Part shown: in pieces, positions 57,837 through 64,000 of the stretch | Numbering within the stretch: the stretch's first letter is position 1 | Layout of the letters: the number at the start of each line of letters is the position of its first letter | DNA from: Thraustochytrium sp. TN22 | Taxonomy: Eukaryota; Sar; Bigyra; Thraustochytrida; Thraustochytriidae | DNA length: 64,000 nt | Assembly: GCA_013306675.1 (NCBI GenBank) | Contig: JABLUY010000087.1 | Span: 1-64,000 of the forward strand | Reading direction: 5' to 3' | Made by a program: the position numbers and the translations under genes | The notes under the pieces: generated by a model | Seen by the model: the letters and a program-made list of their open reading frames with translations, nothing else | What the model was told of the DNA's origin: nothing | Databases searched by the model: none

Positions 57837-58308
57837 CGTGCCGCTGCCCAGCGCAGCGCTCACGACCGCGGCGGCTCGACCGATCGTCTGATCGATCGAT
57901 CGATCGAGCGATCGATCGAGCGATTGATTGATCGACTGATTGTTGTTTGCCAGTCACCATCACTGCTTTCGTGAACGGTCGTTAGGTTGCGCGCGGTGCG
58001 CACCGCTGACACGTAAAAGGACGCAAAGGGCTCGGACCAGAGCGCTATCAGCGCCGGGACGCCGCCCACTGCGCCGCCGCGCGAGGCTCTGCACCTCGCG
58101 CTGGCCTCCTGCCGCCCTGCGCCGGCTCGAACTTGGCTGACGCCAAATTCGAGCTCGACGTTGAACTTCAAGTTGAGCTTGGCGATGCACACGCACACGC
58201 AGGTGCCCGCGAGAGTGGTGCGCGAGGCGACCGCGAAGCGGGGACTACACGGCGGCGGCGGCGAGGAGCAGACAGAACTTGAACACCTGCGCGCGCAAGG
58301 CAGCGCCC
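57837..58308. promoter_or_regulatory. Divergent promoter with GATC repeat
   Basis: Just upstream of the CTF8 start is a run of GATCGATC / GAGCGATC tetramers (about 57873-57940), which is self-complementary. The rest, up to the VMA12 start, shows no gene. Position between two divergent starts suggests a shared promoter. Confidence 0.4.
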
Positions 58309-59127
58309 ATGGCGGCCCCGGCGCAGCGGCAGGCGGCCGAGGGCGCGGCGGCGGGCGCCGCCGAGGGCCCCGGCCCGCAGGCGGCGGCCGCGGCGGCCCC
58401 GGCACCGGCCGAGGGCGGGGAGGAGGGAGACGGGCGCAGGCCTCGCGTGCGGCTGGCGTGCCCCGCGGCGCTTAAGCGCGAGCTGGAGGAGGCGCTGGAG
58501 AGGACAGGGGACGCGGCGTGCGCCAAAGAGGACCGCGAGGTGCTCCAGGAGGTGCTGAGCCGCGGCAACATGGATAGCGACCAGCTGCGCACCGTGCTCC
58601 GCGTGCGCGGCGACGACGCGCGGCCGAGCTTGCTGGCCCTGCTGCGCGGCGGGGACAAGGGCCAGGGCGGCCTCGTCCTGCCGCGGCCGCCCGAGCCCAA
58701 GCCCAATCCGGCCATGGAGAAGCGCCGCGCCTGGCTGATCGCGCGTCAGCAGCGCCGCGAGTACGAAGCCAGCATCGAAAACATCAAGGTCAAGCGGCCC
58801 TCCGAGCAGGTGCGCGAGAGCATGTCGGAGATCCGCCGCACCATGAAGGAGCTCTCCGTCGGCATCATGATGATCCTCGTCTGCGTCGCTGTCTTCTTGG
58901 CGCTCAAGATGGTCGCCGACGCGCGCGGCCTCCCACCGCAGGTGGGCCTTCAGTGGGGCCTCTTTGGCGGATCGGCCATGCTCTTTATCGAGATGATCCT
59001 CTTCGCCATTCGCACCACCCGCGCCGAGTCCTACGAGCGCGCGCAGCGACGCTTCATGGACCGCCAGCCCATGAATCTATCCCAGCTTCCCGTGCAGCCG
59101 CCCAAGCCCAAGCCCAAGACCAGCTGA
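58309..59127 (+). CDS. VMA12: V-ATPase assembly factor VMA12/TMEM199
   Basis: ER membrane protein that helps assemble the V0 sector of the vacuolar proton pump. 272 residues from the ATG at 58309 (the longest frame starts with TTG). The N-terminus is Ala/Pro-rich and disordered. The family pattern follows: helices ending LLALLRGGDKG, then LVLPRPPEPKPNPAMEKR (like LVLPEVPEPP of human TMEM199), RRAWLIARQQRREYEASI, and two membrane helices near residues 183-203 (SVGIMMILVCVAVFLALKMV) and 211-233 (VGLQWGLFGGSAMLFIEMIL). The end is basic with a KPKPKPKTS tail, a possible ER retrieval Lys-rich signal. Convergent with the mini-gene at 59282. Confidence 0.82.
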   Translation: MAAPAQRQAAEGAAAGAAEGPGPQAAAAAAPAPAEGGEEGDGRRPRVRLACPAALKRELEEALERTGDAACAKEDREVLQEVLSRGNMDSDQLRTVLRVRGDDARPSLLALLRGGDKGQGGLVLPRPPEPKPNPAMEKRRAWLIARQQRREYEASIENIKVKRPSEQVRESMSEIRRTMKELSVGIMMILVCVAVFLALKMVADARGLPPQVGLQWGLFGGSAMLFIEMILFAIRTTRAESYERAQRRFMDRQPMNLSQLPVQPPKPKPKTS

Positions 59128-60000: not shown

Positions 60001-62187
60001 TCAAGTTGATTCCTGATTTCTTACTTGGTTCTTGTCAAGGTCATTGACGAGCATACCCTCGTCGCCAGCAGTGTCCACGAGCTCAAGGTCGCCGTCAGCG
60101 TCGGCTTCCACAGCCGTCGCTACACGGTCGTATCGAGGCCGCCGACCGCGCCAGAGACGGAAAACCTGCAGGAGGAGAAGAACGACAGCGAGGCCGAGCA
60201 TGAGGCCGCCAGCGCGCTGCGCCCGAGCGACAAGCTCAGGCGTGGAGTGCTGCGCCAAGAGACGAACCTCTTGCGTGCGCGCGCGCAGCCGCTCCGCTTT
60301 GCAGCTGCACTCGCGGACCGGAGGATCGGGCGGCATGGGCATCTCACACGTGCCCGTCGCCGCTGCCGCCACCGCCGTCTCGTTGAAGATGTCGCGGCTG
60401 CGCACGCACACAAAGCCGCCCCGAAAGGTGGCAGGCTTCTTGCGGCACGCGAGATCCACGCTGCACTCCTCCGCGGGCTCCACGGGCCGCCATACCGAGT
60501 CCTGCTCCAGAACGTCGTACGTGTACGGCAGCGAGATATTATCAAGAGTGCCGAGACTGAGCCGCAGCAGGTCGGCGTGCGTAATGCAGGGCGCGCCGCC
60601 GCCATCCGCAGCGTGCTGCGGTGTGGAGCGCGCCCCAGAGCCGCGGACCGAGGCCAGCCCGAGGTCGGCGCCCGAAAAGCAAAACTCCTCCGAGATGCTA
60701 TCCTCAAAGGCCATGCCAGGGCACTGCGCCACACGGGGGAACCCCCCATAGCCGTTCGCGTAGGTGAGCGACGCGCCGCGGTCCGCGGCCCAGCGCAGAT
60801 GCAAAAGGTCCGTGAAGGCGTGGATACTGTAAAAGAAGTTCTCGTTCAGAGAAAAGGCGCCGTCCCAAAAGTCCGCGCCCTCGAAGCCGCACGCGTACGT
60901 GCCCGCACGGCACGCGCACGGCTCCCGCGGCTGGCAGCTGCCCGCGTGCGGACACGCCACGAGGCCCTGGCGCCACTCCGTGCCCTTGAAGTCGATGCTC
61001 TGCCGCCGCGCCGTCTCGCGCAGCCACCGCACGTGGAGGGCCGCACCCGCCACGCCCACCAGAGCAGCGTGCACGCTCGGCGCGATGCCCACGCCCAGCG
61101 CGCCAAGCACGAACAAGATGCCCACCAGCACCGGCGTCGCCCGCTCCAAGCAGGCCGGCCGCCGCGCCTCGGACCCCTCCGCGCAGGACTGCGCCGCCGC
61201 GGCAGCGGCTGCCGCAGCCGGGTCCGGCGCGATGCACTCTGCGCGCGCCTTGGCCACGCCGAAGGCCAGCATGGAGCCGCACACCAGAAGACCCATGCCC
61301 AGAAAGCTCAAGATCGTCGCGAAGACCTGCGCGCCCACCCAGTCGTCCGCAAAGGTGCCCATGCTCACGTGCGGTGCATTGTGAGGCCCAATGTCAGGCC
61401 CAAGGTGCGTGAAACCGCGGCCCTGGATGCACAGCATAAAGGTCGTGTAGTTGGCAGCACCCTGGCACGCGCGGAAACTGAGCCCAATGTCCGTCGGCGC
61501 GCCCAGCACCCAGCCCGGGTTGCGCGCCAGCCCCGGACACCGCGCCTGGTTCCACGGGCTGCGCCAGTACCCGAAGCCATTGCCAAAACCGCGCGCCGCA
61601 AGGTCGTCGCCGTAGATCTCGCGCACCAGCGGCTCCAGCTCCGGCACCGCGCCCCGCTGCACCGACGTGTTGAACACCGGGTCCCACACGCAGTAGTCTG
61701 CGTCCGGGTCGCCGTACGGCGAGCCCCAGTACTTCCACAACGAGCCGCCCCACCACGAGCCCGTCTGCGCAATGTCCGTCGCAAAGTCCCAGTACGGCAG
61801 CGCGTCCAGGCCCGCCTCGGGCGCGTCCACCGCCAGCACGGCCAGCAGCGCCGCCTCCACCTCGAGCAGCAGCGCGCGGTGGAAGGTCATCTGGTTCTCC
61901 ACGCCGTGGCCCTGATCCGCGCACGCGTGCAGCGCCGCCGTCGCGTGCTTGAGCAGCACGTACGCGTGCGACCGGTACGCCGCCCCGTAGCGCGCGCGCC
62001 CCGCCCCCAGCGGCACCGACCGCATCGTGCGCAGCGCCGCCACGTACGCCTGACGCTGCGCCTCCGTCAGCGACCGCACCTCGCGCCGCACACGCCGCGC
62101 CGCCATCCCGCCCGCGCCAGCATCGCCCAGCCGCAGCCCGCCGCGCGTTGCCGCTCTGCTCGTCCAAGTCACGCCAACGCGTTGCAT
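60001..62187 (-). CDS. Tyrosinase-like copper protein with membrane insert
   Basis: Up to 728 residues from the ATG at 62185-62187; the ATG at 62104-62106 gives 701, and a signal-peptide exon may be missing. Tyrosinase pieces in order: RVRREVRSLTEAQRQAYVAA, CuA-like HGVENQMTFHRALLLEVEAA, ALPYWDF, CuB HNAPHVSMG, and the third CuB site FFYSIHAFTDLLHLRW (canonical F-x-x-H-H-x-x-x-D with the second His kept). Between HNAPHVSMG and FFYSIH lies about 165-185 extra residues with at least two hydrophobic helices (VFATILSFLGMGLLVCGSML; LVGILFVLGALGVGI) and a Cys-rich loop. A further helix near the C-terminus (GGLMLGLAVVLLLLQVF) is followed by a cytosolic tail. The membrane segments split the copper domain, which I have not seen described for tyrosinases. 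Possible oxidase of phenols at a membrane surface. Confidence 0.78.
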   Translation of the reverse strand: MQRVGVTWTSRAATRGGLRLGDAGAGGMAARRVRREVRSLTEAQRQAYVAALRTMRSVPLGAGRARYGAAYRSHAYVLLKHATAALHACADQGHGVENQMTFHRALLLEVEAALLAVLAVDAPEAGLDALPYWDFATDIAQTGSWWGGSLWKYWGSPYGDPDADYCVWDPVFNTSVQRGAVPELEPLVREIYGDDLAARGFGNGFGYWRSPWNQARCPGLARNPGWVLGAPTDIGLSFRACQGAANYTTFMLCIQGRGFTHLGPDIGPHNAPHVSMGTFADDWVGAQVFATILSFLGMGLLVCGSMLAFGVAKARAECIAPDPAAAAAAAAAQSCAEGSEARRPACLERATPVLVGILFVLGALGVGIAPSVHAALVGVAGAALHVRWLRETARRQSIDFKGTEWRQGLVACPHAGSCQPREPCACRAGTYACGFEGADFWDGAFSLNENFFYSIHAFTDLLHLRWAADRGASLTYANGYGGFPRVAQCPGMAFEDSISEEFCFSGADLGLASVRGSGARSTPQHAADGGGAPCITHADLLRLSLGTLDNISLPYTYDVLEQDSVWRPVEPAEECSVDLACRKKPATFRGGFVCVRSRDIFNETAVAAAATGTCEMPMPPDPPVRECSCKAERLRARTQEVRLLAQHSTPELVARAQRAGGLMLGLAVVLLLLQVFRLWRGRRPRYDRVATAVEADADGDLELVDTAGDEGMLVNDLDKNQVRNQEST

Positions 62188-62523: not shown

Positions 62524-63966
62524 TTACTTTTTGGTCATTCGTTTACCAGGTTTGCTGAAAGGCCTCGTTCCAGCACCTTCATCGTATGCATGCTGCTTGT
62601 AAAGCTCAGAGAACTTCTCGGAGAGAGCCTTCTGCATGCGTTTGAGCTGGAATAGCGCTGGAGCTCCCGTCCCCATTTTGGGCATTTCTTGGCCCGCGGC
62701 GCTGTAAGCCTCTATCGTTGCGTCGCGGAGATCAGCGTTGGTCTTCGAGGGTCTAAAGCCATGAAGCTGGACCGTGAACGACCCTTTTTCATCGACGTGG
62801 AGGTAGAGAGTTCGATCTTCTGGGTCCGAAGTGGAAGCGCAGTAACCCGACAGAATGACGTAGTTGGGCGGGGTCCCATGCTTCTTCTTGTACGTGACTG
62901 GCGTCTCCTTGTCGCCCCAGTCGTAGACCTTGAGTTGGCCGCTCTCGTGCTCAGGATGGCCATTGGCCCAGGAAGGCGCTGAGAAAGTGTGCGGGGTTGG
63001 CGCAGGCTGTGGAGGCGAGGGCGCCGAGCGCTCTATGCCCCCTTCCTTACGGATCTCTTTTCTTGACTGCTGAGTAGGAGACGAGCTGCTTCTTTCTAAA
63101 AACGCGGAGCTTGTGCTCGAACCTGTTCCAGGAGTGACCGCGCCGGCGCCAGAGGCATGAATGCCTGACGCGTGGCCGCCAACAGGAGGTGCAGGAAGCG
63201 CAGAGCGTGAGCTTGAGCTTGAACTTGAGTCGAGCAAGCACTCGTCCAGGACGTCTTCCGTGCCGTCGTCATGCTGATTCTGGTTTTCAGATGAGCCGGC
63301 CCGATGTGCTGTACGCCGACGCTTTCCCGCAGCTTCTGTGAGGCTCTCGCTCTTGATCTTGCGCTTCGAGGACTCCTTCCTTTTCTCCTCTTTGTCCTTC
63401 CTGTCCTCCTCCTTGACCTTCATGACCTTTCGCAGCGCGTCTTGGACCTCACTGCGACCATAGACGAGCGCCTCCGCGCACTTGTCTTCATCACCGAAAT
63501 GCAGTGCTACCTCAGCCACCACCTTCATCATCCCCTCGGACACGAGAGCACCAAGGACGGCGCGCCCCGCCTTCTGCGCTGACTCGAAGCTCTCTTGCTT
63601 CTCAGCGCCGAATCGTGTGATCTTGATGAGGCGCGGCTCAGACGGTGTGCTTTCGAGTCTGATTGTGAATGAGACGTTGGGCGCGACCTCGAACTCCGCA
63701 GAGAACCCCGTCGGGAAGATGGGTCCTGACGACGGCATCGTAGAAGGCAGCAACCCGATTGACGTCACCTTCCACACCCCGAGCCGAGGGTCGTCTCCGA
63801 AGAGCGCCTCCTCTCGGCACTTCTTTGGGTATTTCTCCTTGAAGTACTTCCGGGTCATGCGGAAGGCGTCCATGTCGCCGGCCCGGGCTCGGTCCACCAG
63901 GGTCAGAATGCAGAAGCTGATGTAGCTCGTCTCGGGTTCGTCCGAAACGGGGAGTGTGTGAAGCAT
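62524..63966 (-). CDS. Unknown Lys/Ser-rich protein at right edge
   Basis: 480 residues from the ATG at 63964-63966, but the frame stays open to the window end, so the true start may lie outside. The N-terminal half contains folded-looking sequence (FGDDPRLGVWKVTSIGLLPS, FSAEFEVAPNVSFTIRLEST). A Lys/Glu-rich stretch (EEDRKDKEEKRKESSKRKIK, with a KRRRT cluster, likely nuclear) comes next, and then a long Ser-rich linker. The last 170 residues have another ordered part (YVILSGYCASTSDPEDRTLY, FTVQLHGFRPSKTNADLRDA) and a basic end. I recognise no family. Base composition is lower in G+C than the neighbours, which may mark a different history. Confidence 0.7.
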   Translation of the reverse strand: MLHTLPVSDEPETSYISFCILTLVDRARAGDMDAFRMTRKYFKEKYPKKCREEALFGDDPRLGVWKVTSIGLLPSTMPSSGPIFPTGFSAEFEVAPNVSFTIRLESTPSEPRLIKITRFGAEKQESFESAQKAGRAVLGALVSEGMMKVVAEVALHFGDEDKCAEALVYGRSEVQDALRKVMKVKEEDRKDKEEKRKESSKRKIKSESLTEAAGKRRRTAHRAGSSENQNQHDDGTEDVLDECLLDSSSSSSSRSALPAPPVGGHASGIHASGAGAVTPGTGSSTSSAFLERSSSSPTQQSRKEIRKEGGIERSAPSPPQPAPTPHTFSAPSWANGHPEHESGQLKVYDWGDKETPVTYKKKHGTPPNYVILSGYCASTSDPEDRTLYLHVDEKGSFTVQLHGFRPSKTNADLRDATIEAYSAAGQEMPKMGTGAPALFQLKRMQKALSEKFSELYKQHAYDEGAGTRPFSKPGKRMTKK

Positions 63967-64000
63967 CGCCGCGAACTCACTCCTGCAGATTGCATCCGAT

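Follow-up and report, generated by a model that had tools for sequence, protein, structure and literature searches.

The minus strand of the window, that is, the whole 64,000-nucleotide stretch that was analysed (JABLUY010000087.1, positions 1-64,000; contig label C439, in a genome of 37.9 Mb and 453 contigs), carries a tyrosinase-like gene whose product is best explained as a single continuous protein, a divergent member of the type-3 copper group, whose CuB loop would hold a membrane hairpin and whose activity is putative. The probability that we attach to this reading is about 0.5. By its profile match and its ligands, the protein is a member of the type-3 copper superfamily; on the best reading it is the architecture that is new, the superfamily being already known. 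The explanation builds on an open frame whose coding signal continues across the insert, on the Pfam match, on the alignment of six histidines and on a set of hydrophobic segments.

The gene and its reading frame

The frame ends with a stop codon at 60001-60003 and is open up to 62508, the first codon of an 835-residue frame from which all residues are numbered here. It contains in-frame ATGs at 62187, the start given in the preliminary description, and at 62106 (M135), and there is no ATG between 62537 and 62188. Because codons upstream of 62106 score negatively, this second ATG is the more likely start.

60001..62106, minus strand: tyrosinase-like reading frame of 701 aa, MAARRV..., if translation begins at the more likely ATG
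60001..62187, minus strand: the same frame from the alternative start at 62187 (728 aa)

The antisense frame is likewise open, over 749 codons, and openness alone is therefore little proof of a gene; the proof lies in the codon periodicity. Inspection by eye reveals no signal peptide at the N-terminus of either ATG. Residues 135-770 contain 23 cysteines, and four N-glycosylation sequons are present, against a mean of 1.1 in shuffled sequences (P 0.018). On the other strand of the window, 58279-59127 (+) matches Vma12, a V-ATPase assembly factor, with 25.9 bits, barely over the cut-off of 25.5. In the genome, a 3044-residue frame matches the model of a PfaA-type PUFA synthase with 2539.7 bits, a match that points to a thraustochytrid as the probable host.

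Domain membership and copper ligands

The Pfam profile PF00264 matches residues 192-386 with 27.1 bits (cut-off 22.6, E 6.3e-6). When the genome was scanned with this profile at E <= 10, the locus ranked third with 27 bits, after two clearer genes, L001 (99.7 bits) and L002 (85.2 bits). With MelC2, the tyrosinase model of NCBIfam, the score is 26.0 bits, far below the cut-off of 450, and the best match in a PDB sequence search is the tyrosinase 6j2u (E 0.0083). As an observation in its own right, the two clearer genes (L001:64-3291, minus strand; L002:532-3516, plus strand) fuse the tyrosinase domain to PG_binding_1 and Matrixin (Peptidase_M10) domains, in L002 also to C2, an odd pairing of a phenol oxidase with a metalloprotease.

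Alignment places six ligand histidines in order, three for CuA (H181, H201, H210) and three for CuB (H376, H380, H563).

61351..61935, minus strand: part matched by PF00264, residues 192-386
61966..61968, minus strand: CuA histidine 1, H181 (His in 16/16 relatives in alignment A7 and in the 6/6 that reach there in A9)
61906..61908, minus strand: CuA histidine 2, H201 (His in the 6/6 that reach there in A9)
61879..61881, minus strand: CuA histidine 3, H210, in FHRALLLEVE (profile match, A7 and A9)
61381..61383, minus strand: CuB histidine 1, H376, in HN (profile match, A7 and A9)
61369..61371, minus strand: CuB histidine 2, H380, in HNAPH (profile match, A7 and A9)
60820..60822, minus strand: proposed CuB histidine 3, H563, in FFYSIHAFTD (alignments and insert-removed test; weak taken alone)
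60514..60525, minus strand: YTYD, residues 662-665, which by eye resembles the LGYxYD of L001 and L002

The comparison set consists of 26 relatives: L001 and L002, 18 distinct IMG/VR frames and six frames from plasmids. Two of these six plasmid loci (L007 and L012, from Photobacterium and Rhizobium) have a DUF2182 gene after the tyrosinase gene. Alignment A7 comprises 16 of the 18 IMG/VR frames (L027 and L044 left out), and in it every ligand except H201 stands in a column with His throughout. Its H201 column was judged by eye to be out of register, and A9 was built from trimmed relatives. A9 holds 15 of the 18 (without L027, L035 and L044), five of them also as a shorter second row, and aligns H210, H376, H380 and H563 with His in 15/15. 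The register of H201 leans on the trimming, since nine of these 15 start after the second CuA histidine and the short second rows start just before it. A further alignment, A8, was set aside for its six misplaced short N-terminal pieces, and a PDB search with the A9 profile, dominated by the relatives, was not counted as evidence. The ordered presence of CuA, the first two CuB histidines and a third CuB site, noted in the preliminary description, is thus borne out by PF00264 together with A7 and A9, H563 being the less sure of the ligands.

Around the first CuB histidine, N377 occupies HB1+1 and D372, by eye, HB1-4, positions whose roles are treated in the accessible part of PMC5562730. Glu was seen by eye at HB1-4 in relatives such as L007, L008, L012 and L016, but this is not general: in L001 and L002 it lies one place nearer, and L014 is without it.

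An insert between the second and third CuB histidines

A compact soluble tyrosinase has a short HB2-HB3 loop without membrane segments. Here HB3 follows HB2 at a distance of 183 residues, compared with 22-47 in 26/26 relatives, and the peak 19-residue hydropathy of the loop reaches 2.29, against at most 1.11 in the same 26. The description of 165-185 residues with at least two hydrophobic segments and a Cys-rich loop therefore holds.

60823..61368, minus strand: HB2-HB3 stretch, residues 381-562, 182 residues (21-46 in relatives)
61264..61326, minus strand: hydrophobic segment 1, residues 395-415, strong
61081..61137, minus strand: hydrophobic segment 2, residues 458-476, strong
61021..61077, minus strand: marginal hydrophobic segment, residues 478-496, with a score similar to that of the helix 212-230 in the CuA half
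60889..60954, minus strand: Cys-rich loop from C519 to C540, five Cys
60154..60210, minus strand: strong hydrophobic segment near the C-terminus, residues 767-785, with a basic stretch after it

Neither the insert nor the part after it has a Pfam match above cut-off. With the insert cut out, PF00264 scores 39.3 bits and extends to profile position 212 of 214, compared with 27.3 bits for the N-half alone and 27.2 for the N-half joined to one shuffled C-half. The C-half alone has no Pfam match and none in a PDB search, and yields 1.0-1.5 bits with a local HMM built from eight tyrosinases. In this local HMM, joining the halves at 542 gives 41.8 bits (40.8-46.5 across five junctions), compared with 37.6 when only the N-half is scored and 33.1 for the full protein, the latter being lower than the N-half; among shuffled versions one in 1000 reaches 41.8 (mean 36.4, maximum 43.8). 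The motif around H563 was also scored separately. A HMMER model of the CuB-3 site made from 24 relatives gives -1.6 bits (rank 98 of 1033), and a weight matrix 7.0 bits (rank 43 of 308,636 frame windows of the own genome, some of them from overlapping loci), a rank at which chance alone should yield, as an estimate, about 0.06 equally good windows in residues 389-835. From the signature DPxFxxHHxxxDR, the F, H and D are kept while DP and R are lost. H563 is therefore likely, not certain, to be the third CuB histidine, its motif being weak taken alone. The sequence that follows the insert acts as the missing end of the same domain would, an assignment that the insert-removed test supports and to which the motif by itself adds moderate weight.

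Coding signal through the insert

A codon score was trained on 3405 codons from four genes of the own genome. Residues 389-549 obtain 0.332 per codon, against 0.345 in the flank before and 0.252 in the flank after, while the other frames of the same stretch give -0.60 and -0.40 on the forward side and at most 0.004 in reverse. The third-position GC of the insert, 0.91, equals that of the flanks, and GC by codon position amounts to 116, 96 and 147 of 161 (chi-square p 4.6e-10). By piece, hydrophobic segment 1 scores 0.566, segment 2 0.400 and the Cys part 0.320. Two regions lie below a reverse frame, namely the Ala-rich loop 422-456 with only 0.043 (reverse 0.174) and the C-terminus 766-835 with 0.121 (reverse 0.356).

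Relatives and a copy nearby

Searching the own genome with the whole protein returned only the gene itself and a truncated copy. In bacterial and archaeal genome contigs the whole protein gave six pattern matches and no relative, and L001 and L002 gave 53 pattern matches and again no relative; viral contigs yielded no match to the whole protein, and plasmids none at E <= 1. These collections, of bacteria, archaea, viruses and plasmids, hold hardly any eukaryotes, so that orthologues in protists are possible. The truncated copy corresponds to the first third of the gene and lies 12 kb away, at C439:74085-74756 (L006:938-1616, minus strand), with upstream sequence similar to that of the gene itself. 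It carries 13 differences over 285 sites, distributed as 6, 2 and 5 by codon position, and, since there is no third-position excess among them, it looks like an unconstrained fragment, uninformative on the insert. Beside this copy, L006:1789-6474 (minus strand) matches GmrSD_N (2.7e-10) and, below cut-off, GmrSD_C, bacterial restriction-type domains in a eukaryote-like genome. Pieces like the 3′ part of this GmrSD gene recur in the window at 62524-63999 (minus strand), beside the tyrosinase-like gene, apparently through a recent local duplication.

Membrane topology and structure prediction

Two helices in the insert are the simplest count. The preliminary description had proposed an even number of helices, which would keep the ligands on one side; the two strong segments agree with this, but the marginal segment 478-496, and the fact that no signal peptide can be seen, make the topology uncertain. 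Charges hardly choose between orientations, because with both halves outside there would be nine basic residues (K+R) beside the segments on the inside and seven on the outside, and the reverse otherwise. The four sequons and 23 cysteines fit an outside location, for which a long N-terminal domain without a signal peptide would be unusual. Two AlphaFold models, computed from 17- and 21-row alignments, have mean pLDDT values of 38.1 and 40.5, which is very low confidence, and Foldseek comparison of both with the PDB returned nothing at E <= 0.001.

Alternative explanations

The hydrophobic stretch could be an unspliced intron within a compact tyrosinase gene. The search for splice sites covered codons 373-405 for GT donors, of which there are three, each in phase 0, and codons 531-566 for AG acceptors, where two GAG sites alone share that phase. 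In-phase GT-AG pairs do exist, such as 61338 to 60880 (459 nt, GC 0.75), whose removal would shorten the HB2-HB3 spacing to 30 and bring it into line with the relatives, and a pyrimidine-rich CAG acceptor, the sole one, is found at 60826, though in phase 2 and with no phase-2 donor in the searched stretch. Against these possible sites, five introns read in the own genome (three in chaperonin genes and two in the next gene, inferred by eye) measure 60-368 nt, have a GC of 0.50-0.70 and end in CAG in 5/5 cases, whereas the insert combines a GC of 0.75 with codon periodicity, has a frame without a stop, and offers in-phase pairs that require GAG. Moreover, among 12 chaperonin places in the genome, seven are covered by one frame, three are gap-split and two are partial. 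The coding statistics and the contrast with these five introns make the unspliced-intron objection raised in the preliminary description unlikely, and as an account of the whole locus it retains a very small probability.

The main rival accepts translation and regards the protein as a dead or decaying relative of tyrosinase, a pseudoenzyme or relic whose domain was broken by the insert. The low family score beside L001 and L002, the weakened CuB-3 motif, the truncated copy without third-position excess and the failure to find an orthologue in the collections searched are all in keeping with such decay, which nevertheless appears less probable than the preferred reading when it is considered that the six histidines, D372 and N377 are all kept, and that 701 codons run without a stop and show a codon signal in both the insert and the C-half, unlike an old relic. 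A protein of another function that keeps part of the tyrosinase domain would also result if the insert crossed the membrane three times, counting 478-496, as the halves would then face opposite sides and no single dicopper site could form. The long hydrophobic run 457-495, split into two helices by both low-confidence AlphaFold models, speaks for three passes; on the hydrophobicity scale used, 478-496 (3.81) is much less hydrophobic than 458-476 (-0.82) and does not exceed 212-230 in the CuA half (3.72), and a basic stretch follows it, all of which makes this arrangement quite unlikely.

Comparison with known systems

Tyrosinases, catechol oxidases and molluscan haemocyanins of PF00264 share with the protein the six histidines in order and the motifs LPYWD, HNxxH and FxxxHxxxD, and differ from it in HB2-HB3 spacing (183 here, 22-47 in the 26 relatives) and in the two or three hydrophobic segments that lie here inside the domain. 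In the accessible part of PMC3658974, a membrane-bound gamma subclass is described, present only in metazoan genomes, with which the protein has in common a C-terminal membrane segment and a Cys-rich region; here, in contrast, the order differs, with the Cys-rich loop and helices inside CuB, and no signal peptide is seen by eye. The cytosolic beta subclass of the same source likewise resembles the protein in that no signal peptide is seen, and differs in lacking the membrane segments. Judged by these descriptions, the protein fits neither the compact form nor the gamma form. The o-aminophenol oxidases likewise have insertions in loops close to the active site; in the part of PMC12982950 available, the near-site insertion comprises 14 residues, with no membrane helix described. 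PvdP, by its title a tyrosinase of non-canonical domain architecture, provides a precedent for an unusual arrangement. In the partially accessible open-licence PMC literature, no tyrosinase split by membrane helices was recognised, which is no proof of absence from print, and the available main text of a thraustochytrid genome paper (PMC12258536) does not contain the word tyrosinase.

A possible mechanism and its significance

Membrane insertion, copper binding, assembly of the site, phenol oxidation and the substrate are the parts of the preferred explanation, the continuous protein with a hairpin in its CuB loop, that we infer. The loop that joins HB2 to HB3 would have received a membrane hairpin and a Cys-rich loop, and another helix would anchor the C-terminus. 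The two membrane passes of the insert would return both halves of the copper domain to one side, where HNAPH and FFYSIH may meet at the two ends of the hairpin, closing the dicopper site against the membrane surface. We take the HB2-HB3 loop to be the carrier of the gate residue in known enzymes, and because this is the loop that bears the hairpin, the entrance of the site would lie near lipid. The role of the gate residue is treated in the accessible part of PMC5562730. Such a site would oxidise phenols with O2, perhaps lipid-soluble ones, and the Asn at HB1+1, together with an Asp that replaces the water-keeper Glu, would permit phenol hydroxylation. Going further, it is tentatively suggested that the protein is a dicopper oxidase with its active site across a hairpin in the gate loop, with phenols or quinols taken up from the lipid as its substrates, and that it would represent a membrane-integrated type-3 copper branch outside animals.

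The usual view of a type-3 copper domain is that of a single compact four-helix bundle. If the proposed architecture is true, this domain can accommodate a membrane hairpin between two ligands of the same copper, which would show how such a split is possible, and a membrane-bound phenol oxidase would exist outside animals.
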